DNA of 49,004 nt from a virus, in the IMG/VR virus record IMGVR_UViG_3300013307_000009, positions 1 through 49,004 of that record; one strand, written 5' to 3'. Shown one piece after another: positions 2,410-22,656 of this stretch. The notes under the pieces are model-generated. The model was not told where the DNA came from, ran no database searches, and saw only the letters and a program-made list of their open reading frames with translations. The translations under genes and the position numbers were made by a program. Within the stretch, counting starts at the first letter, position 1; each line of letters opens with the position of its first letter.

Positions 2410-3462
2410 TTATACAGCCTGAACGCCATCGAGCCGGGCGATAGCGGTTTCTTTGACACGGTAGAAGCCCGGATACCAGTCAGCCCGGAGCAGCATCTGT
2501 GGCCCCTGGGTGATTTCTTTGGCGACGGTACGCACGTTGAGGGGCGCGTATTCCAGCATTACCACACCGTCCTCTTTGCCTGTACGGATACAGTAAATGT
2601 AGGTGGTGAAGTTGTTGGTGCCAAAGGAGATGTTGTTCGGGATGATGGCGTTGGTGTCCTGGTAGGCATCAAAGAGGGTCACGACCGGGTTGCGGCTGCC
2701 GGGGATAACAATCTTCACACCCAGAAACTCGTCCCAGGTGCGGTTGTAGGCATCCTCGGTGGTCTTCAAGAGGCCGGGGGTGGCAATCATTACGTTCTGC
2801 AAAGCATCCTTGACGTTGTAGTTCATCAGGATGTAGCGGTTGCCGTTCCCACCAGGCACCGACTGTAACAGCCGGGACATCGCGGCCCTGAAGTCCAGCC
2901 CCTTCTGGGTGGTGAAACCAGTCCAGATGGAAAGACCGTTGGCGTAGGAAGCCGCGTTGGGGATAGAGGTGTCTACCCGGATGATTTGTTTGGAGTGGGT
3001 GTAGTAACGGATGCCGTTAAAGCCGTTGGGGTCCGAGGCTTTGTTGCCGTTCATCAAGCGGTCGTTGAGTAACCGATTAAGACGGGCCGCCAGATACCGG
3101 GTCTGGAACTCGCGGGGTTCGAGTCCCTGGAAATAGTTCGAGGTCTTCTGCAAGTAGGCCAGGTCAATCGGCACGTCCTGGCCGAAGATACCCGTTCCAA
3201 CCTGCTCACTTCCGAGGGTCACGACACCCGTGTTATAGGTGCCGCCGATGGGCCGGGAGGTCGGCATCGGGCCGCCTTCCGAAGAAATGCGGTTGACCAT
3301 CCCGGACATCGAGTCCACTGAAACGACGGGCAGAATACCCAGCAGGCCCATACCGCCGCCAGGGGTGTCGTCGTCCAGCATCGCATTGACTGTGCCTTGC
3401 AGGAGGAAGTTCTGCTTCTGAGTGGTGGCATAGTCCAGGAGCGTCATTTGCTCATTAGCCAT
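2410..3462 (-). CDS. Major capsid protein (HK97-type fold likely)
   Basis: This 350-residue protein fits the size and features of HK97-fold capsid proteins. It has an N-terminal helical segment, a Gly-rich loop (residues about 33-42), a long spine-helix region rich in Arg/Leu (about 115-140, with GLEPREFQTRYLAARLN) and a C-terminal region ending in a strand-rich domain. It follows the scaffold candidate and precedes the decoration candidate, the normal order portal, scaffold, capsid. It forms the icosahedral shell by self-assembly. No proteolytic delta domain is obvious. The 86-nt upstream gap is among the longest in the late arm and may carry its own promoter. Confidence 0.85.
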   Translation of the reverse strand: MANEQMTLLDYATTQKQNFLLQGTVNAMLDDDTPGGGMGLLGILPVVSVDSMSGMVNRISSEGGPMPTSRPIGGTYNTGVVTLGSEQVGTGIFGQDVPIDLAYLQKTSNYFQGLEPREFQTRYLAARLNRLLNDRLMNGNKASDPNGFNGIRYYTHSKQIIRVDTSIPNAASYANGLSIWTGFTTQKGLDFRAAMSRLLQSVPGGNGNRYILMNYNVKDALQNVMIATPGLLKTTEDAYNRTWDEFLGVKIVIPGSRNPVVTLFDAYQDTNAIIPNNISFGTNNFTTYIYCIRTGKEDGVVMLEYAPLNVRTVAKEITQGPQMLLRADWYPGFYRVKETAIARLDGVQAV

Positions 3463-3548: not shown

Positions 3549-4568
3549 TTATTTTATTCCCCAGGCTTTCCTAAGAAGTTCCCTGGAATTACCCACCCGG
3601 ATGCCGCCAGTATTGCCGCTAGAGGTATTGCTGCTGCCGTTGGGGTGCGGTTGCGCCCCGGCAGAGTTATCAAACTGGTCCCGGTACTCGGAACGTAGCT
3701 TGCCTTCCTGCTCTTTGAGAGCCTGGTCCTTGCCCTTAACCTCTTTACTCAGCTTGGTGTGCAACGCTTTTGTAACCACGTCCAGCACCTCGAAAGGTTT
3801 GGTCACATCCAGGTCGGCCTTGACCGCCTTGATGTCGTCGGGGGTTAGCCCGTACTGTGAGGCAATCCGGCCAATCTGGTTGGCCTGCTCACGGACAAGT
3901 TGCTGGTGGTACTGGTTGGCGTTGTAGGTCTTGAATTGCTCCCTCTGCCTTTCCAGACGCTGGGCGTTGCGGGCCGAAACGTTAGCCTGGTACTGGGCCA
4001 TCTGGTAAGCCTGGCCCAGGCTCTCGGCGGTTTCGTAATCCCGTTCGGCTACGGCGGTCTGGTACTCGGCGGTGAGTTGTTCCAGTTGCTGCTGGTTGTA
4101 GGCGGCCAATTGTTTGGCCGCTTCTACATCGGTTTCCAGTTCCTGGAACTCCTGTTGCTGCTGCTGGTTAAGGTACTGCAAGTTAGCGGCCCGCTCGGTT
4201 TCCTGCCGCTCCTGGTCGCGTTTGCGATATTCCGCAAGCTCTTGTTCCAGTTTGGTCAGGCGGTCGTCGGCGGGTGGGGTTGCGGCTGGTTGTCCCACAG
4301 CCTGTGGGTTAGCGTCGCCTGCCCCCTGGTCGTTGTCGTCGGCGGCTTCCGGCGCGTTCTCGGAAGGCGACTGGGCCTGGGTAGGTTCGGCTAATTGACG
4401 CTCCATTTCCGCGTAGGAGCGTTTGATAAGCTCACTGGAACCGCCTCTGCGGATAGCAGGCGGTTCGCTGGCAGGAGCTTGGGGGGCAGGGGCAGGTGCG
4501 GCGGGCGGTGGTGTTTCAACCGGGGCCGGGGCTGCGCCAGTGCCTAAGTTATCGGTTTCTACAGACAT
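3549..4568 (-). CDS. Probable scaffolding protein, 339 aa
   Basis: The N-terminal 110 residues are Pro/Ala-rich and disordered. Residues about 105-215 are a Gln/Glu/Ala-rich coiled coil (runs such as LEQELAEYRKRDQERQ), and the C-terminal end is charged and short. Position immediately upstream of the capsid gene, high helix content and disordered ends are typical of capsid scaffold proteins, which guide procapsid assembly and then leave. The Ser/Gly/Asn-rich linker near 300-325 followed by a conserved-looking basic tail (RELLRKAWGIK) could bind the capsid. Sequence alone does not prove the role. Confidence 0.7.
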   Translation of the reverse strand: MSVETDNLGTGAAPAPVETPPPAAPAPAPQAPASEPPAIRRGGSSELIKRSYAEMERQLAEPTQAQSPSENAPEAADDNDQGAGDANPQAVGQPAATPPADDRLTKLEQELAEYRKRDQERQETERAANLQYLNQQQQQEFQELETDVEAAKQLAAYNQQQLEQLTAEYQTAVAERDYETAESLGQAYQMAQYQANVSARNAQRLERQREQFKTYNANQYHQQLVREQANQIGRIASQYGLTPDDIKAVKADLDVTKPFEVLDVVTKALHTKLSKEVKGKDQALKEQEGKLRSEYRDQFDNSAGAQPHPNGSSNTSSGNTGGIRVGNSRELLRKAWGIK

Positions 4569-5096: not shown

Positions 5097-5254
5097 TACT
5101 TACCGCCTTTCTTCTTTTTGAAAGCCATAAACTGTTTGGTGTCCAGGGCTTCCTCTTTTTTGCTGCCCTCTTTCATACCCTTGTCGTCGTCGGCATCCGA
5201 CTTCTCGAAGGCTTCCCGTAGGGTAGCTAACTTGTTCGGTTTCTTGGGTGCCAT
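5096..5254 (-). CDS. Small Lys-rich protein, 52 aa
   Basis: This short gene sits between the giant protein and the 174-aa protein, joined to both by TAATG overlaps (start at 5254, stop at 5096). The product is very basic at both ends (MAPKKPNKL at the start, KKKKGGK at the end) with an acidic Asp run in the middle. It is too small and polar to assign. Translational coupling on both sides strongly suggests that it is expressed. Confidence 0.7.
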   Translation of the reverse strand: MAPKKPNKLATLREAFEKSDADDDKGMKEGSKKEEALDTKQFMAFKKKKGGK

Positions 5255-8200
5255 TAGAATTTCCTTCCTTTGTTAAGGCGGTTGAGGCCGCCGCTATAAG
5301 GGCTGGGTAGGCGGTAAGGGGCAACAGGTGGGTGGATGTAGCCGCTCCCGCCGCTACTGCCGCGAGAACGACCGCCGCCGCCACCTCTACTGCTACTATA
5401 CCCCGAAGTCGAGGACTTTGCAATAGTTTCACTCCTTACCAATTGGCTATCGAGTGCGCTCAACTTTAAGAAGCCTTTCTCCCAGACCGCGTAAGAACCT
5501 TTATCGGGGTCAAATACCACCACCCGGATGTACGAAGGGTCGTGGGCGATGGCACTTTCCGCCGCTTTACGGGCCGAGGCGTAGCTGGTGTAGCCAGCCG
5601 CCCCGCTCGTCCAACCGTTGTCCTGCATATCCTGGGCCGAAGCCTGGTTATCTCCATTGGCGTTCCTCTCCCAGAACGGCACCAGGCCGGACGAGGCGGC
5701 AGAATTGGCCCCTGTTTGCCCGGCAGGGTTCTGCTGGGTGGATAAAGAGGTAGCGGGCGTTGTAGGGCTTCCTACGCCGCCTGTGGGCCGGGGGTTCGTG
5801 GCGGAGTACCCGGCGAACTGCCCGGTGGTAGTGGACTTGTAGCCGCTAGACTGGCCGCTACCGATGCGATTGGCGACCGCCGCCGCGTAAGCCGCCGTGT
5901 GACCATCGGCCAGGGCCAATGCGTAGGCGTGACGCTGCACGCTGTCCCACTGGTTGGTGCTGGTGCTGGTGCCGGACGGGGCCGTTACTCCTGTTGGGGC
6001 TGGCGGCCTGGCGGTTGTGGCCGTGCTGCTCGGCTTTGGGTTTGTACTGCCGGGTCGGTTGACCACCGAAGCCGCCGCCGCCGCGCTGTAACCCTGGCCG
6101 CGAAGCCTGCCATAAAGGTTCTTCTGGGCTGTCGTCCAGTCGCTGTTGCTGCTGTTTTTGCTGCCGGACGACGAGTAGCTGGTGGTCTTTTTGGTGGTGT
6201 AGTAGGTTGAACCAGACGAAGATTTTGTAGAGCCACCAGAAGAACCAGAACTGCTGCTAGAGCTAGAAGTAGTTCCATACTTGGCATCGTTTTCGGCCTT
6301 GTAACGGGCCGCGAATTTAGGGTTGGCGTTCTCGACCGCAGTACGGGCCGCTTTAAGCTGCTTGTACTCGGCACTATCGAGGATGGGGTAAGCCCCTTTC
6401 TTGTTTCCGGCATCGTAGAATTTGCTTATCTGGTCCGAGAGTATCTGGTAACGGCCACTACCCCCGGCATCGAATAGCTGGTCCTTCCACTCCTCATAGG
6501 CCCGGTCTTCCGCGTTTTTAGGCTTGGTGCCGTAGGTCTTGGCATCTTCCTGCTCACGCCTGTCGGCAAAAGGAACGTTGGCATCTATGATTTTATTACG
6601 GGCATCGCGGAGTTGTTTGTACTCGGCACTACCCTCAATCTTGTAGGCGGTTTCTTTGTCGCCCTTGTCAAAAGCGGCACTTATCTGGTCGTTGAGGGTC
6701 TGCCAACGGTCGCCGCCCCCGGCCCGGTAGAGGTCGTCTTTCCACTCGGCGTACTGCCGCTCGCCCGGTATCTCCTGCTTGGCATACTTGGTGTCCACCT
6801 GGGCGACGGTCGAGTGGGTTTCTCCCGGCAGGTAGGGTAGTTCGCCCTTAGCCTGCTGGTAGTCCTTGTCCTTCGCCACCTTGAAGTAGGTCGGGTTGCC
6901 CTTTTTCAAGTCGTCCAGTCCCTTGTTGTAGTCGCGCAGGCTCATGGTTTTGTCGTCGTAGTAAGCCTTGTTCAGGTCGGCCAACGCCTTGACGGTGCGG
7001 TCGTTGCCAATGCCTTCCACAATCTGGTCCGAGGTTTTATTTCGGGCGAAGCTAACTGTTGCTCCTGGGTTCTCGTCAAAGAAAGTCTGGCTCTGGCCTG
7101 GCACGAACTTCTTGGTCTGGTAGCCTGTCTTGGGGTCGGTGGCCGTTACCTCATAGTGACCCTTGTCGTTGGCTACGCTGCCGTAGATATTGGAAAGCTG
7201 GTTGGAAAGCTGCTGCCGGGGCGTGTTATTGATAACGCCCACGAACCCGGCCAGCGAAGCCGCTCTCTGCCAGGCGGTCTGGGACTCCACCACGTCCAGG
7301 GCTTTGAGAGCTTCGGGGGTCCAGTTGCCCACCTTTAGTTTTGCCAGGGCAAAGAGGTACTGCTCCTGGTTCTTGGGGTCGCCCTGAGCCATCTCGGTTA
7401 GCTCCTGCTCGACCGCCGTGAGGGGCTTGCCTGAGTTGACCCCAAAGACAAGCTCGTTGAGCGGGGCTTCCAGGTCCAGGTCGGTGAACTTGATACCCAG
7501 TTTGCTCGCCTGCTCCCGGATGAAGTCGGTCAGCCCGGTCCTGGCCGCCACGTCCCGGATAATGGTGCGCCCGGCCACCAGCCCGGTAGTCTGGTTAAGC
7601 CCGCGTTTATCCGAGGGGTCAGGTGAGAGAAAGCCGTCCGTTACGATGCCCAGTTTCTTGGCGAACTCGTTGACCTGGCCCGTCTTTAGTAAAATGTCAA
7701 TGACCGGGTTGGGCGACAGGAAGGTGGGGATAATCCCCTTCTGGCGGCCTGTCACCTTGCCTTTGTAGGTGGTGTCGTAGCCGAACAGCATCGCCAGGGG
7801 CGTGTTGTTGGCCGGGTTGTCGTCCTGCTGGGCATCGTCGGCATCAATGACCTGCATCAAAGCCTGGGAGTTACCGAGCGGGTTGAGGGGCAGCATACTC
7901 GACATATTCCACTGGACTTTAGAGCCGTCCGGGTTGGTCCACAGCAACAGGTTGCCCATATTGTAGGGCGCGATGCCCCCGGCTTCCTTGTTCTGCTGTT
8001 CCATATTTTTGTAGAACTGCAAGACCGCCGCGAACTGGACCGGGTTGTTGGCAAAGTAGCGGGCGACGTAGGCGAAGTTACGACGCGCCCAGTAGTTGAA
8101 GGGCAGGAGCGTCCCGACCATCTGGTCAATGACGTTCTTGTTCTGGTAGTCGAAGTAGACCCCCTCGACCCGGTTATAGGCCGCCCGGTCTATGTCCGTC

Positions 8201-11200
8201 ACCACCCCGGATAGGTCGCCGAACAACCTGTTCTGGAAACCCTGCTCGGCCTTAGACCTGGCATCGGCCTGGTCCTGCGCCCTGGACGGGCGCACTTTGG
8301 CCTGCTCGTAGCGGCGGTTGGCATCGGCGTTAAGAGCCTGGATAACTTTCCTGGCTTCGTCGGTTTCAAGACCGACCCGCTCGGTCGGGGTGGTTACTTC
8401 GGTGGGGTCAGGGAAACCCAGCCTGCGGGCGATTTCCGAATACGCCCTGGTAACACCTTCCTTACCCTGCTCTTTCTCAATTTGTGAGAAACCCTTCCTG
8501 GCATCGCCACCAAAATAATCTTCAACTTCCTTGACCACCTGTTCAGGCGTATTAGGTGGTTCGCCAGCAGGCCACTTAGGGGCGGCCTCTCCAACCGCCG
8601 ATGGCCTTGTGCGCCCCATGAGTTCATCAAGGGATTTGCCGTCACTAATCCGCACAGGCGTGAAGCTATCGAGGTCAAGTTTGAAAGTATTGCCTGTAAC
8701 GGAGCGTATATATTCGTCAGTCGCCAGAATATCCCGGAAGTATTGTTTCTTCTGGGTGAGGGTGTACCTGTCCGTTTTGAGTTCGCCACCGTGTCTACCT
8801 CGGTTCCAGTTACCTACAATCTTTCTTATCTCGCTGGGGGTGATAACCTGGCCCTGCTTGCCGTCCTCGGTATCCATACGGATACCCTTAGAGCCGTTAA
8901 TAGCCTGGTCGTAACGGGCCAGTTCTGCCGGGGTATGCTCCGCCGCTTCCTGGCGTAAGGTCTTGGGTGCGCCTTCCCAGCCCTGGCGTAACTCGGCCTT
9001 GACTTTGGCTTCCAGGTCCACGTAACGCACGTTATCCGCCAGGATGTGGCCCTTCGTATCACGTATCTGGTACTTGGTAAGCCTGCCGTTGGGCGGCTCG
9101 TCGGTCCTGTGCTGGCTGACCCAGCGTGTGGCTATCTCGATGGGCGTGGCGGTGCCGCTTTTCAGGGTGATAGGCCAGACCGCTTCGTGAACATTGTTTT
9201 GCAGGTGCCGGATTTCGGCGGGCTTCGCCAGGTCGAAAGGCCTGATGCTGACCGGGCGGGCGGCCTGCGGTCGCGGTTCGTTAGGGTAGGTGGTAGTTTG
9301 AACGTTCGCCTCGAACTTCCCGGTGGTGGGTGGCTCGGTCGGTTTGATGGACGGGATGGTGCGCGGGTCGAACGAGCTTTCCTGTATAGTCCCATCCGGG
9401 TGGACAGTACGCCACTCCTTTGGCCCGGTCTGGGTGGTGACAGGTTTCGTCGGGGCGGGTGGGGCCGGGGCTGGTGGGGTCGGCTCAGGCTTAACAACCT
9501 TCCCGGTTTCGGGGTCTACAGTAGGTGGGGTAAAGTCAGGCTGCTCACTGTACTTGCCTATCTCGTTGCCTTCGGTGTCGTACATTATGTCCCAGTCAGC
9601 CGGGCGGCCATCAAAATCTTCTTCCTGGTCACGGGCGCGGGGTGGTTTCTCCGGGGCCATCTTGTCGACATCGCCGCCCAGCATCTTGTCGAAGACCTTT
9701 TTTATTTCGGGGGTCAGCTTAACGTCAATGTCACCACCCTTGATGGTGTAGTAGATACGTTTGAGCCATTCGTGGAATTGTTTGAAGACCGCCGCCAGGG
9801 TCGGGGTAGGGGCGTGACCGTCGCGCAGGTAACGCTCGAAACCACGCGCAAACTTTTCTTCCTGGGCAACCGTCCAGTTGCCTTTGGTGGCCCCGGTAAA
9901 ATCCTCGGCGGCTTTTAAGAGTTCGTCCGGCAAGAACTGGCGGAAAACGTGGGCCAGTTCGTGCGGCATCGTAGAGGCGTTAGCGTTCTCGAAGATGGAG
10001 ATGATGTACCTGCCGTTGTCGGTTATCTCGGTGGTGCCGAGGACCATCTTGCCGCCTGCTTGCTGGGGCAGCAACCCGGTGGTATCCGGCCTGTCGGTGG
10101 GTATATCCAGGCCCATAGCGGTGATGTTACGGTAGGTCGGTGGGACCGGGCGGCCTTGCCTGAAACCATCGCCTGTTTGCTCGGCAGAGGCCAGGGCCGC
10201 AGGCCCGGTTGTTTCAAAGTTATCGCTGGTGCCGCCACGACCGTGTATCTCAGCCAGTTGCTTTTCGTAAAACCAGAGCAAAGCCTGGGCCTGGGACATT
10301 GTTATATCTATATTCCGCGCCCGGTATCTGCGTACAAGGTCGGCCATCGCCCGGTCCATCATAGATACCTGGCCTGTGGTCGGGGCTTCCAGGACGGGTG
10401 CGTTGGCATCCCCCAAGTTGCCCATCAAGCGGTTCCAGGTGATGGTAAACCACATATCTTTGGTGGTTCGGTCGGGTGCGCCCAAAAGATTAGCAACAAA
10501 GTTACCAATTTTAGGGCCAAAAATGGTGCTTCCGTATTCACCCGGCACGTAATCCGGCCCCACATCCCCGGCTCGTTGGTGAAAAGCGGCATCGTCTTCT
10601 ATGGCTTTTCTGATACGGGTCATGTAGGTTCTGACCGAGGCCGGGCTGTTTAGCACCTGTTCCAGGACGGGCCTGATTTCTTCGGCGGTATGTTTGGTTT
10701 GCAGCCAGTCCATCGCCAGGCGAATATTACCGTGAAACCTGTTGTTCACTAGGTCGGCCAGCTTGATGAAGTTGGCGGTTTCGGTGCCAAATAAAGTCGG
10801 GGTTGGCCCCAGGACACGCGCCCCCGGCACCTCAGTCGAGCCGTCTACACCGGGGTACTCTACATCAAGCATCCTGTTGAAAACCTCGGACGTACCGAAC
10901 TCATTGACCATGTCGGCGTAGATGCGCTTGACCTCTGCTTTGGTGTGAGTATGGCTGGCCCAGTCCAACGCCCTGGTCACGTCCGAACGAAATTCTCTTG
11001 TGGTAAACAGGTCATAAAGAGCGTGTATTGTTTCCGGGTCTGTTATCCCGGTAGCCTGGCTGCGGTCGCGCAGCCATTTAAGAGCCTGGGTTTCCAGCCG
11101 TTTCTTGGCGCGGGCCAGGTCGTCCCTTGTGAACGCCCGCAAACTCGCGGCCCCACTTGAATAATCGGTCCAATCCCTTTTTGCGCCGGAAAAAAAGTCG

Positions 11201-14200
11201 CGCAACCGGGTCAAGTTTTCCGGGGTAAACCCCATAGCGGCCAGGTCAACCGGGGCGGCATCAATCTTGGTGACACGAATACGACCGCTCTTGGCGTACC
11301 TGTCAAAAGCCAGGATAGATTTGGTTAGGTTCTGGTCTACCTCGGTTCCCTGGCTGGTCAGGCCCGTAAAGAGTTTGAAAAGCCGCTCCCCGTCTACGTC
11401 GGATTGCAGTTCCGGCATCGCCCGCTTGATGTTTTCCATAGCCCGGACCCAGGAGTCGGTGTACCACGTGCGCCCCGACCGGGCATCCGGCAGGCTTAAT
11501 TGATAGTCAATCTCAGCCATCGCGCCTTCCACGAAGCGGTCTATCTGGGCCTGCTCGATTTGCTCCGGGGTGCCGTGTGCAGCCAACTCCGGGCTAACAG
11601 CCGGGCCGTTGCGCCTGTTCTCATCATTACGGAGTGCAATCCGGCTCGGCCCTTCGCGGTTGCTACTGCTCCTTACTCCTGGTATCTCAAACTGGCTGGG
11701 TATGCGGTAACGGGTATCGTCCGGGCGCAAGCGGTTGTGTTCTTCCTCAATCCGGCGACGGATGTCGGCGGTCTGCTCTAAAGCTCCGGGGGCTACCTTG
11801 TCGCCTTTCTTAAAGCTGATACTGTCGTAAATCTCGTTCGCGCTGCGCCCGGTATCCGCTTCGTAGGCACGGGCATACTGGTCCAGTAGCTGCATCCCGG
11901 CATCGGCAAATTTAGGGTTGTACCCGGTGCCTTTAAGCTCGGCCAGGATACGGTCGCGGCTGTTGGCGTAGGGTCCAAGCGGTTGGGCCGGGACATCACG
12001 CGGCTTGGGCGGCCACACCTGATACTCGTCCTGACCGTTGCGCCCGGCGTTTTCGGGTGTATCAATTCTAAAGTGCGGCCCGTCGGCCCGGTCGCTCCTG
12101 AATACCACTTTGCCTGCTACGTCCGGCTTGCCGTCCAGTACCTTCTGGGCCAGGTTCGCGGAAGTGGAGTGTCCTTCGGTCTTGCCGTAGGCTTGTATCT
12201 GGGCTTTCAAATCTTTTTTGTAGCGTTCGGTTTCGGCAGCGTCGCGGGGCATCCCGCCCGGCTCGGCAGGGGCCGGGGTCTTGCGGATATACTTGTTGAA
12301 GAAACCCCTGGTGTCGCGCTTGTCTATCCGTGCGGCCAGGGCCGTTTTGAGGACACTCACCCGCCCCTGGTTAGCCATATAGTCCATCGAGTCCAGTATC
12401 TGGTTGCGCACCGCCGCTCGGATAGCCGGGTCCATACTCTCCTGGATTTGAGCGGCTTTGTTGGCAACGTCCAGCTTGTCGAACATCTCGCCCGTCATTT
12501 TTTCCCACAGGGGGTGGCCGGGCCGGACATCGGCCAACTTTACCCGGCTGGCTTCGTAGTTGGCCCGGAGCGTCTTTAGCTGGGCGGAGTAATCCCTGGT
12601 CCCTGGCCGGAGAGCCGCGACCTTCTTGTCAAACTCTTTTTTGAGTTCCAGGTTGTGCTGGCCCACAAGGTCAGGCAAATCATTTAGCCCGTCGCGAACT
12701 ATATCCCCGATAGGTCCGGCCTCACCCTTGAACATATTGGCGTAGCGTACCTGCAAAGCGTCCGAGTAGTTCTGGGGGTTGTAAACACCTTTTGCAACGT
12801 CGTCAATCCTGGCCCCCTCCGGCATCCGTAAATCCATAAAGCTCTTGACGGTCTGCTCGGTGAGGGTGCCGTCCTTGATGGCCCGGCCTATTACCGGGTC
12901 CAACGCGCCTGTCCTGATACGGTCCTCGATGGCCTGGTCCCACAGCCTGAGAAATTCCCGCTTGTAGGCGTAGGTCTTAAAACCTTCCTCTTTCTTTTCG
13001 GTGTAGACGTTCCAGTCCCGGTACTTGCCCTTGCTGACGGCGTTGAGAAGGTCGCTCGAAAGTTCGTCAAAGGGGTTGAGGACGTGAAAGAATATCTCTT
13101 TCAGCGTGCCGCCCCTGGCTTCCTTGCCGCCAATATCCGCCAGGGCCGAGGCCCGGTTCATCGGCAAGGTCTTATCTTCCAGGCCCAGCATTTCCCGGAC
13201 ACGGGCGAAACGGGGGTTGGTGTCACCGCTATGACCGAAGCCTTCAACCGCGTATTTCAAGAGGTTTGAGGCGGTGTCGCGGATAGCCCGGCCTGACTTG
13301 TTGAGAAAAGCCCGGCCCATATACGGCATCGTCAGGTCGCCAAACTTGTTGAGGATTTTACCCGCCACGCCGAACTGTTCCAGGGGCCGGGTCTTACGCA
13401 GTTCACTCTTGGCGATGGTGGTGCCTTCTTTGAAGACATAAGCCTTGCGCTTGAAACCGAGCGATTTGACGGCAGCGTTGAGCAGTTCTTCGTGGGTGTG
13501 ATAGGTATCGGGTATGCCAATGGCCCGGTGCATCTCGGTTATCTTGTCGGGCCGGGGCGGGTACAGCCTCTGGGTAAAGCTGTCGTTCAGGTCGGCTGGG
13601 GGCGCAGGCGGAATGTCGCTCTGGCGGCCCACCTTGTAGGTGTTCTCGAAATTCGCCAGGTCTTCGGGGGTCTTTATTTTGGCCCGGAAGTCCTCGGCCT
13701 CGACCGCCGCTTTTTCGTCGGCCTCGTAAGCTCCCATCGGTTTCCCGGTGTCGCGCCCCTCGCGCAGGTCGGTTGCCCGCTTCTGGCGAAAGTCCGTGAG
13801 AGCCGCGTTTACCTGGCTGTCCTGGCTGGGGGCCGGGCGGCTGGCGAGGTCGGCGGCCTCGGCTTTGGCGTTATTGGCGGCGTGCTGGGCGGTTTTGTAG
13901 GCGTTCTCTAACGCCGGGTCGGTAAGGGCGGTGGCGGTGCCATTGGGGTCCACCAGGGTCGGCTTCTCGTTGGCATCGAACTGGACGGTCCTGCCGGGGT
14001 TGGCATCCTGGACGCGCTGCACCTCGGCCTGGTATTCCTTTTGCAGACGGTCGGCCCGGTCCTGCCAGGTGGCATCGTAGACGTTACCGGGCTTGGGGGT
14101 CTGTTCGTCAAAGAGGGTCTTGGCCGCCCCGGTCGAGGTGTCCTGCTCACGCCGGGCCATATCCACTTCGTTTTGCGGCAGGGTTTCTTGCTGTGGTGTC

Positions 14201-15699
14201 ATTACGCCCGACTTCTGTTCGGCGTTCAGGTCTATTACACCCAGCCAGTCCCTGGCTTCGTTGGCAATCTCAGGGTTAATGCCCTGCTTTTCCCAGTAAA
14301 ACGGACTTTCGGGGTCCAGGTAGACCGCTTGCTCGGCCTGTTTCATATCGCCCAGGGCTTGCTCGGCCTGGCGCACCACGTTCAGGGCCACCTGCTTTTC
14401 ACGCTCGTAGGTAGCCAACCCCTTTTGCGGCCCCTCGATAGCCCGACCCAGTTGGTTGAAGAACGGTCTGGTCCCGGTGGCATCTACCAGGGCGTTGGTT
14501 CCGGCCCCCACCGCTCGGCTGGTCAGGTCGCCCAGAGCCTCGTAAGGCTTCATCAAGGGTTTAAGAGCCTGGTCATAAATAACGTTAGCGGGGTTGGCGT
14601 GGGTGAACTGAACGAACAACTGCTCAACCGGGTTGAGTTTTGAGAAGTCTTCCATCGCCGGGACTTCGGCTTGGGTGATGGGGTTCATCAGCTTAATGCC
14701 TTCCCTGGTGGCCTGGCGTTGGGCTTCCTGTGGGTCCATACCCTGCGCGATTAACTGCTGGTAAAGTTGCTGGCTCTGGCTGATGGCGTACTGGTTCATT
14801 ACGTCGTGGGTCCAGGGGTTAAGGGCCGAGTAAGCCGCCCGGACCAACGGCTGGCGGGCCAGCGACTCACTCAGGTCTTTGCCCAGGTCGCTGCCAACCT
14901 TACCGAAGTTACCACTGGTTACGTCGCCGTAAACATCTCCCAGGAACTGGTTCGCGCCACTGGCGGCCTCACCGATGGTCCCGGTAAAGAGGTTGGCGGC
15001 AGGCTCAACCGCCTGCTCCCAGACATTACGAATAGCCCCACCCGCCACGTTCAGGCCCGGTACGCTACTGTCGGCCAGGGTGTCAACCCCGCTCCCGATA
15101 GGCGCGGTCACGGCACCCAAAGCCCCACCTGCGGCCTGGGCGGTCTTGGCAAACGTATCACCCACCCACTCTAGCGGGTTCATTCCCTGTTTGGTGGGCT
15201 GGTCGTAAGCGTTGGCTACCGCATCCCAGACCCCCTTGCCGTACTGGAATAGTGGGTCGTTGTTGACCTCGCCGCTACCCAACTTCTTGAAGCCGCCCGG
15301 TAGGGTGTTGTCCGGCTGTTGCGGCTGACCCTGTGGCTGAGTAAGAGTGTCGAACCAATTCTGGTACGCGGCGGCCTGTTGTTGCTGGTCGGCCTGGTAC
15401 TGTTGGGCCTGGTTCAATTGGGCATAGGCGGTAGACATATAGTCCGGGGCGTAAGGGCCGACGTAGGGCGCGGGTGTGTTGTTGCCCCCACCGTACATCG
15501 TATCAAAAGCCGAGGGCTGGCTTGGTTGGGGTGGGGTGTAACCTGTTTCAGGCGCACCAAGAAACGCCCAGGGGTCATTACTTGGAGCCGCAGGTGGTGG
15601 TGGGCTGTAGCTGTTGTAGCCATTATCGGCATAGGCGGCATCAGCAGCCGGGTCATAGCCCGTTGCGGGTGCCAGCAGAAACGACCAGGGGTCACTCAT
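5254..15699 (-). CDS. Giant polyvalent-type virion protein with HExxH metallopeptidase, 3481 aa
   Basis: At 10.4 kb this one gene fills 21% of the genome. Visible parts: a Pro/Gln-rich N-terminus with a duplicated DPW-x-FL-x-AP-x-TGY unit (residues 4-55); a long helical region; a segment FGPKIGNFVANLLG near 1725; a zinc metallopeptidase motif HELAHVF at residues 1913-1919, with His1913, Glu1914 and His1917, followed by an EKFARGFERYLRDG stretch; Pro-rich linkers; a segment near 2500-2620; two tandem 75-85-residue repeats (about 2977-3140); and Ser/Gly-rich tails. The motif and context resemble the large polyvalent proteins of phages and conjugative elements, thought to enter the host with the DNA and counter defences. 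Internal location in the capsid and ejection are inferred. Confidence 0.8.
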   Translation of the reverse strand: MSDPWSFLLAPATGYDPAADAAYADNGYNSYSPPPPAAPSNDPWAFLGAPETGYTPPQPSQPSAFDTMYGGGNNTPAPYVGPYAPDYMSTAYAQLNQAQQYQADQQQQAAAYQNWFDTLTQPQGQPQQPDNTLPGGFKKLGSGEVNNDPLFQYGKGVWDAVANAYDQPTKQGMNPLEWVGDTFAKTAQAAGGALGAVTAPIGSGVDTLADSSVPGLNVAGGAIRNVWEQAVEPAANLFTGTIGEAASGANQFLGDVYGDVTSGNFGKVGSDLGKDLSESLARQPLVRAAYSALNPWTHDVMNQYAISQSQQLYQQLIAQGMDPQEAQRQATREGIKLMNPITQAEVPAMEDFSKLNPVEQLFVQFTHANPANVIYDQALKPLMKPYEALGDLTSRAVGAGTNALVDATGTRPFFNQLGRAIEGPQKGLATYEREKQVALNVVRQAEQALGDMKQAEQAVYLDPESPFYWEKQGINPEIANEARDWLGVIDLNAEQKSGVMTPQQETLPQNEVDMARREQDTSTGAAKTLFDEQTPKPGNVYDATWQDRADRLQKEYQAEVQRVQDANPGRTVQFDANEKPTLVDPNGTATALTDPALENAYKTAQHAANNAKAEAADLASRPAPSQDSQVNAALTDFRQKRATDLREGRDTGKPMGAYEADEKAAVEAEDFRAKIKTPEDLANFENTYKVGRQSDIPPAPPADLNDSFTQRLYPPRPDKITEMHRAIGIPDTYHTHEELLNAAVKSLGFKRKAYVFKEGTTIAKSELRKTRPLEQFGVAGKILNKFGDLTMPYMGRAFLNKSGRAIRDTASNLLKYAVEGFGHSGDTNPRFARVREMLGLEDKTLPMNRASALADIGGKEARGGTLKEIFFHVLNPFDELSSDLLNAVSKGKYRDWNVYTEKKEEGFKTYAYKREFLRLWDQAIEDRIRTGALDPVIGRAIKDGTLTEQTVKSFMDLRMPEGARIDDVAKGVYNPQNYSDALQVRYANMFKGEAGPIGDIVRDGLNDLPDLVGQHNLELKKEFDKKVAALRPGTRDYSAQLKTLRANYEASRVKLADVRPGHPLWEKMTGEMFDKLDVANKAAQIQESMDPAIRAAVRNQILDSMDYMANQGRVSVLKTALAARIDKRDTRGFFNKYIRKTPAPAEPGGMPRDAAETERYKKDLKAQIQAYGKTEGHSTSANLAQKVLDGKPDVAGKVVFRSDRADGPHFRIDTPENAGRNGQDEYQVWPPKPRDVPAQPLGPYANSRDRILAELKGTGYNPKFADAGMQLLDQYARAYEADTGRSANEIYDSISFKKGDKVAPGALEQTADIRRRIEEEHNRLRPDDTRYRIPSQFEIPGVRSSSNREGPSRIALRNDENRRNGPAVSPELAAHGTPEQIEQAQIDRFVEGAMAEIDYQLSLPDARSGRTWYTDSWVRAMENIKRAMPELQSDVDGERLFKLFTGLTSQGTEVDQNLTKSILAFDRYAKSGRIRVTKIDAAPVDLAAMGFTPENLTRLRDFFSGAKRDWTDYSSGAASLRAFTRDDLARAKKRLETQALKWLRDRSQATGITDPETIHALYDLFTTREFRSDVTRALDWASHTHTKAEVKRIYADMVNEFGTSEVFNRMLDVEYPGVDGSTEVPGARVLGPTPTLFGTETANFIKLADLVNNRFHGNIRLAMDWLQTKHTAEEIRPVLEQVLNSPASVRTYMTRIRKAIEDDAAFHQRAGDVGPDYVPGEYGSTIFGPKIGNFVANLLGAPDRTTKDMWFTITWNRLMGNLGDANAPVLEAPTTGQVSMMDRAMADLVRRYRARNIDITMSQAQALLWFYEKQLAEIHGRGGTSDNFETTGPAALASAEQTGDGFRQGRPVPPTYRNITAMGLDIPTDRPDTTGLLPQQAGGKMVLGTTEITDNGRYIISIFENANASTMPHELAHVFRQFLPDELLKAAEDFTGATKGNWTVAQEEKFARGFERYLRDGHAPTPTLAAVFKQFHEWLKRIYYTIKGGDIDVKLTPEIKKVFDKMLGGDVDKMAPEKPPRARDQEEDFDGRPADWDIMYDTEGNEIGKYSEQPDFTPPTVDPETGKVVKPEPTPPAPAPPAPTKPVTTQTGPKEWRTVHPDGTIQESSFDPRTIPSIKPTEPPTTGKFEANVQTTTYPNEPRPQAARPVSIRPFDLAKPAEIRHLQNNVHEAVWPITLKSGTATPIEIATRWVSQHRTDEPPNGRLTKYQIRDTKGHILADNVRYVDLEAKVKAELRQGWEGAPKTLRQEAAEHTPAELARYDQAINGSKGIRMDTEDGKQGQVITPSEIRKIVGNWNRGRHGGELKTDRYTLTQKKQYFRDILATDEYIRSVTGNTFKLDLDSFTPVRISDGKSLDELMGRTRPSAVGEAAPKWPAGEPPNTPEQVVKEVEDYFGGDARKGFSQIEKEQGKEGVTRAYSEIARRLGFPDPTEVTTPTERVGLETDEARKVIQALNADANRRYEQAKVRPSRAQDQADARSKAEQGFQNRLFGDLSGVVTDIDRAAYNRVEGVYFDYQNKNVIDQMVGTLLPFNYWARRNFAYVARYFANNPVQFAAVLQFYKNMEQQNKEAGGIAPYNMGNLLLWTNPDGSKVQWNMSSMLPLNPLGNSQALMQVIDADDAQQDDNPANNTPLAMLFGYDTTYKGKVTGRQKGIIPTFLSPNPVIDILLKTGQVNEFAKKLGIVTDGFLSPDPSDKRGLNQTTGLVAGRTIIRDVAARTGLTDFIREQASKLGIKFTDLDLEAPLNELVFGVNSGKPLTAVEQELTEMAQGDPKNQEQYLFALAKLKVGNWTPEALKALDVVESQTAWQRAASLAGFVGVINNTPRQQLSNQLSNIYGSVANDKGHYEVTATDPKTGYQTKKFVPGQSQTFFDENPGATVSFARNKTSDQIVEGIGNDRTVKALADLNKAYYDDKTMSLRDYNKGLDDLKKGNPTYFKVAKDKDYQQAKGELPYLPGETHSTVAQVDTKYAKQEIPGERQYAEWKDDLYRAGGGDRWQTLNDQISAAFDKGDKETAYKIEGSAEYKQLRDARNKIIDANVPFADRREQEDAKTYGTKPKNAEDRAYEEWKDQLFDAGGSGRYQILSDQISKFYDAGNKKGAYPILDSAEYKQLKAARTAVENANPKFAARYKAENDAKYGTTSSSSSSSGSSGGSTKSSSGSTYYTTKKTTSYSSSGSKNSSNSDWTTAQKNLYGRLRGQGYSAAAAASVVNRPGSTNPKPSSTATTARPPAPTGVTAPSGTSTSTNQWDSVQRHAYALALADGHTAAYAAAVANRIGSGQSSGYKSTTTGQFAGYSATNPRPTGGVGSPTTPATSLSTQQNPAGQTGANSAASSGLVPFWERNANGDNQASAQDMQDNGWTSGAAGYTSYASARKAAESAIAHDPSYIRVVVFDPDKGSYAVWEKGFLKLSALDSQLVRSETIAKSSTSGYSSSRGGGGGRSRGSSGGSGYIHPPVAPYRLPSPYSGGLNRLNKGRKF

Positions 15700-15707
15700 G
15701 GTTTATC

Positions 15708-17375
15708 CTATCCGGCGAAGTTATCGCCGTAAAAAGTAGGCTGGTTGTTAGGTCCGGGGTCCGGCTGGTCAATTACCCACTGATGGCCGTCCCAATAATA
15801 ACCAGGCACTTTCATGCTCCCGGCAGGCGGCAACAAGGGGGTGGGCGGGCCGTTATAGGCTATCGGGGTTGCGGCGTTTTGGACAGCCGGGTTGCTGGCA
15901 ACGTTACCAAAGACCTTACCCAGGACATTACCGATACCCCGTTGCACCGCCTGGTTTTGGGCGGCCCTTTGTTGTTGCTGCCGCAAAATCTCGGCGGCGT
16001 TCATCAAGCCACCTTTAGCCACGCTTACCCCAGTAGCGAGTTTCCTTTGGGCATCCTGGATTTCCTGGGTGGTCGGTCCATTCGGACCAACCTGTCCTTT
16101 TTGACCAGTCCCTTGCTTGCCGTAGCCGTAGGTTGTGGCACCTCTACCACCACCACCACCCCCACTGTTACGCCGGGCGGTGTTAGCCTTATCTTCTGGG
16201 CTTTGGCCGGGGGCGTAGAAACCCCTGGCTTGCTGGGCCTGGACGTTCTGCTCACGTTTGACCACACCGTAACCGGGCTGGCCGTTGGCATCAACGGTCT
16301 TTATTACCACGTAGTCAGAAGTCGGGTCGGCACTGGCCGCTTGCGCTGCCGCCCGGTAAACCACATTCGCGTCCGGGTTGCCGCTATTCGGGACGACCTG
16401 CCAACCGTACACATCGGTGGCCTGCTGCAATTTGGTGGCATCCATCACCCCCTGGACTTCCGCGAAGCCGTTTTGCTTGGCGTTGGTTTCGGCAAACAGG
16501 TTGTTCAGGAAAGCCTGCCAGGGTACACTATTCGGTTTCGAGTAATCCCAGGCTGCGCTCTGGGGGTCGCCACCACCAATCCCGACCCCAGTAGTGGCCG
16601 ATACTGCCGGGGTCGGGTTAGCCGCAGGCGCGGTCGCGGCTGGCGAGGAAATGGCGGTGGGTTGAGAGGTGTATGGTACATAGCTGGGCTGGTTGCCCGC
16701 AGGTAGGCCAGGATTCTTATTATTCGCCAGGTAGTTGGTCAGGATACTTTGTTCGCCAGACTGGGCAGCCCCGGCCCTGGCGTGGTCGTAACCCGCGTAG
16801 TAGGCTTTTTCGGCATCGGTCAGGTAACGCCCGGTGGCATCACGCTGCCCGGTCTTGTCCACCCAGTGGCCGCCCGAAAAGAACCAGTCGCCACTAGTGT
16901 CGGGCGGTCGGCTGGGGTCAGTCCCGGTATTGCCCGAAAAGGTGCCGAGGTTCGGGGCGGCGGTTTGCCCGGTCACGGTATAACCCTGTTGCGAAGGGCC
17001 AAGCCTACCATCCCCCACGTTTGGCAGGACAGGCCGGGCCAGGGGGCCAGGCACCGTCGGTGGGGTCCAGGGTGGCTGCTGGCCGCTTCCCTGGGTGTTG
17101 ATTATAGGCGGCCCGGACTGGCTGGCCGGGTTGTTGGCAGGGCCGCCCGCAGGCCGCCCGGTCACGGGGTCTATCCCGCCGCCGTTAAGGTTAGTCGGCT
17201 GCCCGGCAGGTCCATTCGGGTTGGTGCCGGGGGCGTTGGGGTTGGGCTGGTTCGCCACATAGTCGTAGTTCGGGTTAAACCCGGCCAGACGCAGCCAGTC
17301 GGCCACCGTTGGGCCGTTAGTCACCGGGGGCGGGGTATCCGGCTCGTACTGCCCGGTCATATAATTAAAAGGCAT
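15708..17375 (-). CDS. Pro/Gly/Asn-rich virion-locus protein, 555 aa
   Basis: The protein is low-complexity over most of its length (Pro, Gly, Asn, Gln, Ala), with a Gly run at about 410-416. Near residue 65 it carries DPVTGRPAGG, the same motif as in the 236-aa protein encoded upstream, and about 40 residues near 180-215 (ATGRYLTDAEKAYYAGYDHA) look folded and helical. It starts 9 nt after the 149-aa gene and ends 8 nt before the giant gene. With its neighbours it probably forms a set of internal or ejection proteins. No enzymatic motif is visible. Confidence 0.7.
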   Translation of the reverse strand: MPFNYMTGQYEPDTPPPVTNGPTVADWLRLAGFNPNYDYVANQPNPNAPGTNPNGPAGQPTNLNGGGIDPVTGRPAGGPANNPASQSGPPIINTQGSGQQPPWTPPTVPGPLARPVLPNVGDGRLGPSQQGYTVTGQTAAPNLGTFSGNTGTDPSRPPDTSGDWFFSGGHWVDKTGQRDATGRYLTDAEKAYYAGYDHARAGAAQSGEQSILTNYLANNKNPGLPAGNQPSYVPYTSQPTAISSPAATAPAANPTPAVSATTGVGIGGGDPQSAAWDYSKPNSVPWQAFLNNLFAETNAKQNGFAEVQGVMDATKLQQATDVYGWQVVPNSGNPDANVVYRAAAQAASADPTSDYVVIKTVDANGQPGYGVVKREQNVQAQQARGFYAPGQSPEDKANTARRNSGGGGGGRGATTYGYGKQGTGQKGQVGPNGPTTQEIQDAQRKLATGVSVAKGGLMNAAEILRQQQQRAAQNQAVQRGIGNVLGKVFGNVASNPAVQNAATPIAYNGPPTPLLPPAGSMKVPGYYWDGHQWVIDQPDPGPNNQPTFYGDNFAG

Positions 17376-17384
17376 TGGTTTCTC

Positions 17385-17834
17385 CTACATACTCTGGCCG
17401 CCCGGTAGCCCGTGCATCAGGGTGTCCCAGGCATCCTGTCTTTCCCGTTGGTTGCGATAAAGGCTGCTCATCTTGTCCTGCCAGGAATACGTGGACGGGT
17501 CGGCCCCGTAAGGCATTGGTGGCGGGTTTTGTTGTGGCGGCTCTGGTTTGACCCCTTCCCACATACGGTCCCAGGCCGAGCCGTTGTCCGGCACCGGGGT
17601 GTAGTAACTGTTATAGCGGTTGCTTGCCACGTCCCAATCGTCCGGGGCCGAGCCGTAGAATTTCTTTTCGACCGGGGCAGGCGGCGGGGCGACGTAGAAA
17701 CCTTTGTCCGGGCCTTGCACACCCTGGCTCAGTTGCGGCTGGGGGATACCCCCGGCGTTATTATTGATATAATCGGCCCCGTTGGTCAGGGCATCGGCAA
17801 CGGTTCCAAAGATGCTACCCCAGTCCAGTGCCAT
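17385..17834 (-). CDS. Pro-rich virion-locus protein, 149 aa
   Basis: A short N-terminal segment (MALDWGSIFGTVADALTNGA) could form an amphipathic helix. The rest is Pro/Tyr/Trp/Asp-rich with short motifs and no clear fold. It lies 9 nt downstream of the 236-aa gene and upstream of the 555-aa gene, with GGAGAAACCG before the ATG. It looks like a member of the same Pro-rich virion group. Function unknown. Confidence 0.65.
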   Translation of the reverse strand: MALDWGSIFGTVADALTNGADYINNNAGGIPQPQLSQGVQGPDKGFYVAPPPAPVEKKFYGSAPDDWDVASNRYNSYYTPVPDNGSAWDRMWEGVKPEPPQQNPPPMPYGADPSTYSWQDKMSSLYRNQRERQDAWDTLMHGLPGGQSM

Positions 17835-17843: not shown

Positions 17844-18554
17844 CTAGAAGTTGGTCGCCGCGTAGTGGGTGGCTTGCTGGCCCATCCGGGCGAACGACTG
17901 GTTGGTGTAAGCCCCGGCATCCAGGTTGGTGCGCTTGTTCTGCATCTGCTGGGTGGCGTATTCGCCGAAGTACCACTCCGGGTACTGTTTTTTCACATCA
18001 TCGCTAAGGTTGTTGTAGATGTCGGTGGCGGATACCCCGTGCGTCCACTTGCCGTCTTTATCCACAAAACTGTAGGTGTTGGTGTCCGGGTCGTAAAGGG
18101 GCGCGTCTACCGCTTTGCCCTGGTCCTTTGCCAGCGACTCTTTCCAGATACGCCGGGCCTCGGCTTCCTGGATAGCGTAACCTTCCCGGCGTTTGTCCCA
18201 GTCGGCCCAGGCTGCGGCCCCAATCTGGGCCGCAGCAGCGTTCCCGGCTGGCCCGGAGTTCACCGCCGCTTCGTAGTAAGCCCGTTGCTGGGCGGTCCAG
18301 TGAGGGTCAGCGTGAATATAGCGGGGGTCGGTCGGGTCTGGCGGCTTGTAATACTGGTTCGGGTCCGGCCCGGTTCCGGCTAAAGTCTGGTTGGCCGGGT
18401 CGGGTGGCACCACCCCGGCTGGTCGGCCTGTTACCGGGTCCACCGCCCCACCGTTGAGGGGCGTGGGTGGTGTCGTGCCTGTGCCGCCGCTACTGAGAAT
18501 ACTGTCCAGACCCTTCATCCCGTTGGCCGGGTTATTGCTCCATCCGATTTCCAT
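17844..18554 (-). CDS. Pro-rich virion-locus protein sharing a motif with the 555-aa protein, 236 aa
   Basis: The N-terminal 85 residues are Pro/Gly/Asn-rich and contain LNGGAVDPVTGRPAG, nearly the same as LNGGGIDPVTGRPAG in the protein two genes downstream. This hints at duplication or recombination between linkers. Residues about 95-236 are helical and charged (QQRAYYEAAVNSG, AAAWADWDKRREGY) and end in a Gln/Asn/Thr-rich tail. The start overlaps the portal stop as TAATG. A role next to the portal, for example as core or ejection protein, is inferred from order. Confidence 0.7.
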   Translation of the reverse strand: MEIGWSNNPANGMKGLDSILSSGGTGTTPPTPLNGGAVDPVTGRPAGVVPPDPANQTLAGTGPDPNQYYKPPDPTDPRYIHADPHWTAQQRAYYEAAVNSGPAGNAAAAQIGAAAWADWDKRREGYAIQEAEARRIWKESLAKDQGKAVDAPLYDPDTNTYSFVDKDGKWTHGVSATDIYNNLSDDVKKQYPEWYFGEYATQQMQNKRTNLDAGAYTNQSFARMGQQATHYAATNF

Positions 18555-21127: not shown

Positions 21128-22656
21128 TAACCTATTCTCCTAATTCTCAACGGGTTGGCGTTGTGCAGCACAAGCTCCCGGTAGGTGCTGTCGTCGTGCC
21201 AGATGTCTTCGGTAATCGCAAAGGCTTCCAGGGCAGTACAGGCGTGAGAGGCCCAGTTGTGGGCCGGGCTGTCGTTGGCGGTGGTGTAGTTGCCGTAGGG
21301 GTCGCGTTCGTGGTATTTGTAGGCTTCCATACTCTTGATAAACCACTCACAGCTTTCGTCCACGTGCAAACGGTCCAGAAGGTTACGCACCGATTGAACC
21401 CGGTCCTTCATCACCTGCCAGCGCGTGGTGTTGCACTTAGGCCGGATACCGTACTCTTTAAGCACCTTGAAAAGGCTGCCGTCACTTAGCTGGGTGCGGT
21501 TGCGCCCGGAAGGGTCGCCAAAATTTATAACGGGCCGCCGCATCGTGTGGGCGTAGTCGTAGGCCTGCTGGAAGTTATCGGGGATAAAGTAAGGGTTGGG
21601 GAAAAGCGTCACCCCCGGATAGAAGTTTAAGAACCACTTTATTTCCTGCTTGGAAGCGCAAACCTCGTTGACAAGGTACAGCTTATCGCCGTCGTCGAAG
21701 TCCTTTTGTAGAAAACCCATATAGGTTTCGTCCGAGTATCCCCAGTCCCAGAATATCGCCAGGGGCAGGTCCGGGTTGTAGGGGTAGTCGCCCACGTGCC
21801 TGGCCCGGTTAAAAGCGGCGTAGACGCGCCCGGCAGTTGAGGCGGTGCGGTCCATCAGATACTCCCTGGCCCAGATGAGGGCATCGGTGTGAGCTTCTTT
21901 GTCGGCCCGCCACTGGGGAGTATAGTTCTCGTTTTCTTCCATCGTGTAGGTGATAAGCCGCTTGGCCTCGGCAGCCCGGTCAATCAGTTCGGTGAAGTGG
22001 TCTACGTTCGCGTTGAGGGTGGAGATGGCAATCACGAAGCTGGTCACGCCCAGGACGCTATCAAAGACCGGGTAGGCCCAACGCGCATACTCGTCAATGA
22101 GAACCCCGGTGCCGCGATTGGAATGGCCGAAGTTGGCGTTGGCACTTTCGCCTGTAAAGTAAGAGTGGTTCTCCGGGTTGATGAGTAGCATCTTCTGGCG
22201 GTGGATACTGCGGTCAAAGCCTTCCGGCAGTAGCTGGGGCGGCAGGTGTTCCACGAAACCGTCCAGCTTGGCAAAGAGCGTAGTCCTCTTTTTGCCCCCG
22301 GCGTAATCCACTTCTTCTTCCTTGCGGCTGCCGAGTAGCCCGATAAAGTTAGGGGTAAAGGTCCACAGCCAGAAAAAGAAAGCCTCGACCACGTAGGTGC
22401 CGCCCACGCCCCTGGCCTTGAACATCACCCGCCACTCGTCCTTGCGGTAGGCTTCCCACAATTCGCCCACAATCCTGACCTGGGCTTTCCACAGCTTGAA
22501 TGGTTTCCAGCCCGGTCCTTCGGTATTAAATTGTTTCTGGGGTTCTTCTATCCACAGCCACTTGGAAATAAAGCGCACGGGGTTCTCCCGGCAAGCCTTA
22601 CGCTCCGACTCCCACCAGACCCGTTCAAATTCATCCAGGTCATTGTCAATTGTCAA
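21127..22656 (-). CDS. terL: Terminase large subunit, 509 aa
   Basis: The protein is the packaging motor ATPase and nuclease. The Walker A-like segment is KARGVGGTY (residues 80-88), an atypical version lacking the usual Lys-Ser/Thr end. Walker B is GVLIDEY with Asp188-Glu189. The nuclease domain shows FWDWGYSDET (Asp304) and FGDPSG (Asp381), the usual acidic positions of RNase H-like terminases. At the C-terminal end NWASHACTALEAF replaces the usual DHxxDALRY-like motif, so one metal ligand looks different. The start is a TTG at 22656 with AAGGAG about 10 nt upstream. Portal follows in TAATG overlap. Confidence 0.9.
   Translation of the reverse strand: MTIDNDLDEFERVWWESERKACRENPVRFISKWLWIEEPQKQFNTEGPGWKPFKLWKAQVRIVGELWEAYRKDEWRVMFKARGVGGTYVVEAFFFWLWTFTPNFIGLLGSRKEEEVDYAGGKKRTTLFAKLDGFVEHLPPQLLPEGFDRSIHRQKMLLINPENHSYFTGESANANFGHSNRGTGVLIDEYARWAYPVFDSVLGVTSFVIAISTLNANVDHFTELIDRAAEAKRLITYTMEENENYTPQWRADKEAHTDALIWAREYLMDRTASTAGRVYAAFNRARHVGDYPYNPDLPLAIFWDWGYSDETYMGFLQKDFDDGDKLYLVNEVCASKQEIKWFLNFYPGVTLFPNPYFIPDNFQQAYDYAHTMRRPVINFGDPSGRNRTQLSDGSLFKVLKEYGIRPKCNTTRWQVMKDRVQSVRNLLDRLHVDESCEWFIKSMEAYKYHERDPYGNYTTANDSPAHNWASHACTALEAFAITEDIWHDDSTYRELVLHNANPLRIRRIG

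Follow-up and report, generated by a model that had tools for sequence, protein, structure and literature searches.

A giant, cysteine-free phage protein with a zincin-like domain, probably carried in the virion, from a lineage linked to Chloroflexota

Introduction

Why should a phage devote a fifth of its genome to a single protein? The question is raised by the IMG/VR virus record IMGVR_UViG_3300013307_000009, the whole of which (49,004 bases) is the window analysed here, and by its largest gene, which encodes the giant protein P0001:

5254..15699, minus strand: giant gene P0001, 3481 residues, 383 kDa, no cysteine (open reading frame)

The open reading frame runs from 15699 to 5254, from ATG to stop without an in-frame stop, with GGATAGGATAAACC immediately 5' of the ATG, and takes up 10,446 of the 48,881 unique bases (21.4%). 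A preliminary description of this DNA had given the same length and share of the genome and placed the gene between the portal group and the capsid genes; we confirm these points and add the strand, which was left unstated. It had further likened the protein, with its peptidase motif, to polyvalent proteins, which would be delivered with the phage DNA and block host defence or process partners. Our analysis favours, with a probability of roughly 0.6, the view that P0001 is a polyvalent-type giant that is packaged in the head and ejected by a probably short-tailed phage of Chloroflexota, and that its peptidase acts at or after delivery.

Results

A zincin-like domain surrounds the HExxH motif

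9658..10065, minus strand: predicted zincin-like metallopeptidase domain, residues 1879-2014, ~135 residues (phrog_9880, Bbp10 homology, AlphaFold2)
9949..9963, minus strand: HELAH motif, residues 1913-1917 (H, E and H invariant in 76/76 relatives)
9835..9858, minus strand: EKFARGFE in a later helix, with the candidate third zinc ligand Glu1948 (or Glu1955) (invariance)

Residues 1884-2010 match phrog_9880 (E=2e-20). A tblastn search against ~50,700 phage records gave ~40 matches, in all places listed through the HExxH region alone, including BPP-1 Bbp10, AF gp16, Jess A gp39 and Leptolyngbya phage Lbo-JY46. Viral contigs were scanned by an alignment-driven search whose sole pattern was the downstream ExFAxxFE motif, and at least 553 of the 599 pattern-matching stretches listed are relatives. 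The HELAH motif lies where it had been reported, and it is not a chance occurrence, since 76/76 aligned relatives keep His1913, Glu1914 and His1917, and these relatives had been retrieved with another motif, HExxH being outside the search pattern. By composition alone, HExxH is expected 0.024 times in P0001. The six relatives that had not been picked by ExFAxxFE likewise all keep Glu1948 and Glu1955, and zincin anatomy makes one of the two a candidate for the third zinc ligand.

AlphaFold2, run with 76 sequences, modelled residues 1879-2014 mostly at a predicted local distance difference test score (pLDDT) of 84-97, as three strands (240-242, 246-253 and 259-263 in model numbering), the HExxH helix (271-281) and later helices with the two glutamates; the rest of the modelled stretch is in large part poor. 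This order of elements is that of zincins, and together with the conserved HExxH it argues for a peptidase-like fold rather than the chance helix that the preliminary description had allowed for. Foldseek against BFVD gave six matches at E<=1e-3, of which two carry names: a 'crystallin beta/gamma motif-containing protein', as Bbp10 is called, and an uncharacterised phage protein.

Judged by homology, the peptidase domain itself is already known: it is that of BPP-1 Bbp10, a seed of the CLCA_X family in 2013 (PMC3650047). Because the consensus HExxHxxxD of that family is absent here, the last position being Gln1921 in P0001 (HELAHVFRQ) and Arg in 48/76 relatives, we describe the domain as zincin-like and homologous to the CLCA_X seed and do not call it a CLCA_X member. 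Profile comparison by hhalign with ten N4-type virion polymerase C1 domains aligned HExxH to HExxH (P=2e-4 to 6e-6, probability 49-85%), and with a cropped alignment the probability was 64.9%, whereas none of 60 column-shuffled controls exceeded 2.1%. The domain thus bears a distant resemblance to its HExxH counterpart in the N4 virion RNA polymerase, and this link of PHROG 9880 to the N4 polymerase domain is new here.

The N4 comparison also invites the idea of a domain without catalytic activity, with a role in packaging or regulation like that of the N4 C-terminal region. In that phage, encapsidation requires the region with the HExxH domain (PMC5512222) and the polymerase is inhibited by the C-terminal part (PMC12633501), and the extra acidic residue of HExxHxxxD is missing from P0001. 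We nevertheless doubt this explanation, as the invariant residues include the glutamate needed for zincin catalysis, and the two further invariant glutamates could complete the site.

P0001 belongs to a family of polyvalent proteins

A zincin-like metallopeptidase is the hub domain of the polyvalent class (Iyer et al. 2017, PMC5512222). P0001 carries such a domain and is encoded among late virion genes on one strand (terminase, portal-like, giant, capsid). Among its relatives, 133 have the HExxH domain within a giant open reading frame. Three further domains were delineated in P0001 by profiles:

11746..11988, minus strand: domain D1, residues 1238-1318, helical, motif dAxArA..tG..P.efY (iterated profile, E=4e-15)
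10207..10605, minus strand: domain D2, residues 1699-1831, DUF7178-like, GPKxGxFxxNLLG...TKDxWxxR...QALLWYYEK (profile matches)
7978..8424, minus strand: domain D3, residues 2426-2574, lineage-specific C-terminal domain, FDYQNKNVID...LPFNYWARRNF (iterated profile, E=7e-42)

When thirteen D3 relatives were scanned singly against Pfam, they showed ART-PolyVal (three members, best 4e-31), PBECR5, LPD5, ddrB-ParB, LPD1 and GGDEF, and nineteen other giants showed ART-PolyVal (two), one methyltransferase and ParB_N. P0001 has no detectable Pfam-recognised polyvalent domain; it combines one enzyme domain with D1, D2 and D3, and second activities are seen in relatives only. Because these relatives carry polyvalent domains, sequence comparison places P0001 in a family made up of polyvalent proteins as defined in PMC5512222. 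The polyvalent-type label of the preliminary description is therefore upheld by the zincin-like domain, the head-gene setting and the Pfam polyvalent domains within its own subfamily. The proposed block of host defence is not borne out, as P0001 shows no detectable domain of the anti-restriction, methylase, ART or nuclease kinds. No RNA polymerase family matched P0001 or its segments.

A related possibility is an effector role, in which the injected peptidase would cleave host proteins belonging to defence, the envelope or the S-layer. Effector delivery has been predicted for the class (PMC5512222), and effector-type domains occur in D3 relatives, but no effector or anti-defence domain is detectable in P0001 itself, nothing indicates a host target, and the domain appears more conserved than would be expected of a fast-changing effector. 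We regard such a role as unlikely.

Giants of this family lack cysteine, as ejected proteins do

P0001 has no cysteine in 3481 residues, against 26 expected at the rate of the other genes of the window. Among giants of at least 1000 residues (n=133), 78 have none, with a mean of 0.05%. Across 126 loci, the giants contain 0.05% cysteine and their same-strand neighbours 0.74%, the giant being lower in 123/126, with no comparable depletion of tryptophan, methionine, histidine or other residues. Outside the small peptidase domain many of the giants have little sequence in common, so shared ancestry by itself explains the depletion poorly.

Known ejection proteins show the same composition. T7 gp15 and gp16 have no cysteine and gp14 has one; P22 gp7, gp20 and gp16 have none in 1309 residues, N4 gp50, gp51 and gp52 none in 4294, and BPP-1 bbp10-12 one in 3003. 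The crAss001 cargo proteins, proven by mass spectrometry (PMC10172136), have seven in 7478 (~0.1%), and other proteins of the control phages, mostly virion or packaging proteins, contain 0.47-1.04%. In the published model for N4 and crAss001, proteins pass through the tail unfolded or partly unfolded (PMC12633501, PMC10172136). Virtual absence of cysteine is a supportive, not a defining, trait of ejection proteins in the literature, and P0001 shows it. Another trait differs: the genes of BPP-1 and T7 ejection proteins follow the tail genes, whereas P0001 lies between portal-like and capsid genes. Together, the evidence that P0001 is ejected is good but indirect, and delivery with the phage DNA, as proposed earlier, is probable, its composition fitting ejection through a tail.

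Three neighbouring proteins, which are perhaps ejected as well, share the lack of cysteine:

17844..18554, minus strand: 236-residue protein, no cysteine, candidate co-packaged protein (position and composition)
17385..17834, minus strand: 149-residue protein, no cysteine, candidate co-packaged protein (position and composition)
15708..17375, minus strand: 555-residue Pro/Gly/Asn-rich protein, no cysteine, candidate co-packaged protein (position and composition)

The 236-residue (17844-18554) and 555-residue (15708-17375) proteins have in common the motif NGGxxDPVTGRPAG in a Pro-rich context, perhaps a common packaging signal. The absence of cysteine in the N4 virion RNA polymerase has been remarked on earlier. 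Our literature search, in which subscription journals were mostly uncovered, found no paper on the virion proteomics of Bbp10-type proteins or on a cysteine signature, and we report the signature as new.

The D3 lineage has its own gene order and hosts

Capsid genes in the collected loci (numbered with the prefix L) were detected by profile. The D3 domain is present in 12/12 loci with the capsid gene downstream of the giant and absent from 11/11 loci with the capsid gene upstream (BPP-1, AF, vir555 and similar). The order portal-like gene, giant, scaffold-like genes, capsid gene recurs in the D3 lineage. Besides P0001, D3 occurs in 16 loci, 14 of them viral and two in bacterial genomes. Of 55 loci in GTDB genomes of many phyla, only L104 (Anaerolineales) and L118 (uncultured Chloroflexi), both Chloroflexota, combine D3 with a downstream capsid gene. 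L104 lies on a 39-kb contig alongside phage genes. L118 lies on a 130-kb contig of a metagenome-assembled genome (G001:C5) and is most likely an integrated prophage, because the contig also holds genes of chromosomal type, among them a set for branched-chain amino-acid transport, as read from open reading frame translations. L118 is a direct host link to Chloroflexota for the D3 lineage. P0001 itself was found in none of the bacterial genomes searched. The suggested Chloroflexota host is hence supported for the lineage, both of whose bacterial-genome loci are in that phylum, and not directly for this phage. A D3 lineage with its own gene order and hosts is new here.

Genome and gene neighbourhood

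A direct terminal repeat of 123 bp stands at 1-123 and 48882-49004. Contig L007, from another metagenome and more than 99% identical, crosses the joined ends and holds a 427-residue open reading frame, which is cut in two in the window. The record is therefore a complete genome of ~48.9 kb with terminal redundancy. On the minus strand, in the sense of transcription, the genes follow as terminase large subunit, 857-residue portal-like protein, proteins of 236, 149 and 555 residues, the giant, proteins of 174 and 339 residues, and capsid protein:

21127..22656, minus strand: terminase large subunit (phrog_2, E=4e-13)
18554..21127, minus strand: portal-like protein, 857 residues (profile relatives upstream of the giant in 7 loci; L040 relative)
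3549..4568, minus strand: putative scaffold-like protein, 339 residues, no cysteine (position before the capsid gene)
2410..3462, minus strand: major capsid protein (phrog_212 major head protein, E=2e-17)

The portal identity of the 857-residue protein has a single basis, its L040 relative matching the portal family phrog_156 (E=2e-4). In L008, the capsid protein is 88% alike and the scaffold-like gene has diverged to 50%.

Elsewhere, the genome encodes an Amidase_2 endolysin of 433 residues (41664-42965, E=5e-19) whose N-terminal part is weakly glucosaminidase-like and, on the plus strand, a RecT/Bet-like annealing protein (24258-25190, 2e-27) and a primase-helicase (26211-28028, DNA polymerase/primase PHROG, 2e-23). 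A short DNA tandem array, TGTTGGTCC x 3.3, lies at 32361-32390.

Architecture of P0001 outside the peptidase domain

15100..15699, minus strand: Pro/Gln-rich acidic N-terminal leader, residues 1-200, isoelectric point (pI) 4.05 (composition)
15538..15693, minus strand: duplicated short motif DPWxFLxAPxTGY, residues 3-15 and 42-54 (read from the sequence)
6280..6762, minus strand: two protein-level tandem repeats of ~75 residues, 2980-3054 and 3065-3140 (self-alignment)
5818..6183, minus strand: two shorter repeats W...Q...Y......G..AA.A...NR.GS, residues 3173-3231 and 3236-3294 (self-alignment)
5257..5499, minus strand: Ser/Gly-rich basic tail, residues 3401-3481, pI 10.6 (composition)

The layout given in the preliminary description is largely recovered. 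The leader contains 13% Pro and 10% Gln, and the tail 19% Ser and 18% Gly. The tandem repeats are real at the protein level, residues 2980-3054 scoring 190 against 3065-3140 (best of 300 shuffles, 49), and are not DNA tandem arrays; the shorter, putative pair scores 82. The long helical regions are helical in the models beyond the peptidase domain too, as a prediction that is largely of low confidence, and the C-terminal model has a pLDDT of 44.7. The combination of domains is absent from Pfam, NCBIfam and PHROGs save for one PHROG to which no function is assigned there. A duplicated motif comparable to that of the leader, PWxxWGExQGY/F, lies in the N-terminus of the relative L040.

Iterated profiles over the giants show D1 to be common to ~44 of them. 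The D2 profile matched L018, L148, L111 and L077; the L018 and L077 copies match PF23802 (DUF7178) at 6e-4 and 9e-5, under the family cut-off, and the P0001 segment, though homologous to them, alone gives no PF23802 match. Seeds from residues 1-1200, 1380-1650, 2080-2400 and 2560-3400 found zero relatives in the loci collected. The whole of P0001 gave zero matches to Pfam, NCBIfam and PDB sequences, and ten segments of it gave none above cut-off in Pfam and PHROGs.

Several leads were rejected. An SseC-like match of the N-terminus (0.006) is under cut-off and of low complexity, and a match to phrog_23988 (6e-5) falls at 3087-3117, inside the repeats. A suspected repeat between the C-terminus and the 555-residue neighbour scored no better than shuffles. 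The first D1 seed was the wrong stretch of L011 and gave no useful result. A tape-measure protein was rejected for P0001 on position, upstream of the capsid gene.

Discussion

We then propose a model for P0001. The protein would be made late and packaged in the head near the portal, with the small cysteine-free proteins encoded alongside. It may then leave through the portal and tail in unfolded form, ahead of the DNA or together with it, and in the cell would refold into domains on flexible linkers. The zincin-like domain, if it binds zinc, may be a metallopeptidase active at or after delivery, most likely cutting P0001 itself or co-delivered partners and so freeing the flanking parts, which is the most economical choice of target. 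D1, the DUF7178-like D2, D3, the repeats and the basic tail may serve packaging, membrane or DNA contact, or accessory functions. The tail is probably short, because the capsid protein is of the BPP-1 type and no tape-measure gene is recognisable. Two observations favour action at or after delivery: the HExxH protein of N4 enters the head without processing (PMC5512222), and in BPP-1 and AF the giant coexists with a head protease that is annotated separately.

Several observations weigh against this model. Foldseek of the peptidase model against PDB gave chance matches (best E=0.78, not a zincin), perhaps due to the portions of the model, much of it, below pLDDT 50, and a profile search for a solved zincin gave none significant. 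The relative of the HExxH domain in N4 sits in a protein that enters the virion without processing (PMC5512222), which leaves self-cleavage unestablished as a trait of the family. Lack of cysteine is not exclusive to ejected proteins, as the T7 and P22 scaffolds and N4 gp56 and gp57 also have none, nor universal among them, as P1 DarB has 9 in 2255 residues; the signature does not extend cleanly to contractile-tailed P1.

Could the peptidase instead work in the producing cell, where, in the manner of a prohead protease, it would mature the giant or adjacent head proteins ahead of packaging or in its course? The giant gene adjoins scaffold-like and capsid genes, a scan of the head genes recognised no prohead protease while BPP-1 and AF have an annotated one, and P1 DdrB, with a C-terminal metallopeptidase, is processed before packaging (PMC5512222). 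This explanation seems improbable to us, given that BPP-1 and AF retain the HExxH giant in spite of their separate protease and that the N4 protein enters the head uncut. Least likely of all is a permanent resident of the capsid, acting there as an inner-head structural or MuF-like assembly protein without being ejected. Such a role would suit the MuF position of P0001 between portal and scaffold, and scaffolds too can be cysteine-free, but P0001 has no MuF domain match, Bbp10-type homologues adjoin internal virion proteins and a transglycosylase/endolysin gene, and cysteine depletion in the giants equals that in proven ejection proteins.

Returning to a packaged and ejected P0001, it is possible, though we put it forward only tentatively, that phages of Chloroflexota possess an undescribed apparatus for protein delivery with the D3 giants at its core, encoded as a cysteine-free cassette (236, 149, 555 and 3481 residues) between portal and capsid, and that a lack of cysteine generally marks proteins that thread through a short phage tail, which would make ejected proteins recognisable by sequence alone. 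Giants with an HExxH peptidase domain are common in viral contigs, as the relatives listed above attest. PHROGs labels PHROG 9880 as of unknown function, and in public records its members go under the names 'crystallin beta/gamma motif-containing', 'lysis protein' or 'hypothetical'. The zincin link to the N4 polymerase, the polyvalent class and the composition test together make the question of injected proteins testable in uncultivated phages, and a Chloroflexota lineage is pinpointed whose delivery proteins are unstudied as far as the literature was searched. The giant class to which P0001 belongs is widespread and little-studied, and is probably carried in the particle and pushed into the host.

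Comparison with known systems

The closest known counterpart is Bbp10 of Bordetella phage BPP-1, whose residues 726-920 are homologous to residues 1846-2007 of P0001 (E=5e-15). With its relatives it represents PHROG 9880, among them AF gp16 (Pseudomonas putida phage AF, motif HELGH), Jess A gp39, vir555 and OANV1 gp16. Like P0001, these proteins are giants of the late operon with almost no cysteine, in phages with the same capsid protein family. The remainder of Bbp10 is not detectably related to P0001 pairwise, Bbp10 lacks D3, and Bbp10-type genes lie ~7-8 kb downstream of the capsid gene, past the tail genes, whereas P0001 lies upstream of it.

CLCA_X is a predicted zincin family seeded partly with Bbp10 residues 700-1000 (PMC3650047), which contain the domain homologous to that of P0001; at the last position of its consensus HExxHxxxD, Bbp10 itself has Glu. 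With the polyvalent proteins (PMC5512222), P0001 shares the late-gene setting, giant size and zincin-like metallopeptidase, and its subfamily relatives carry polyvalent domains, but P0001 has a single identified enzyme domain and none of the Pfam-recognised polyvalent ones. The N4 virion RNA polymerase gp50 (PMC12633501) has an RNA polymerase domain, which P0001 does not appear to have, and outside the HExxH domains, remotely alike by profile, the two are unrelated. In overall plan, they agree: both are cysteine-free, of ~3500 residues, with an HExxH domain followed by a large helical C-terminal region.

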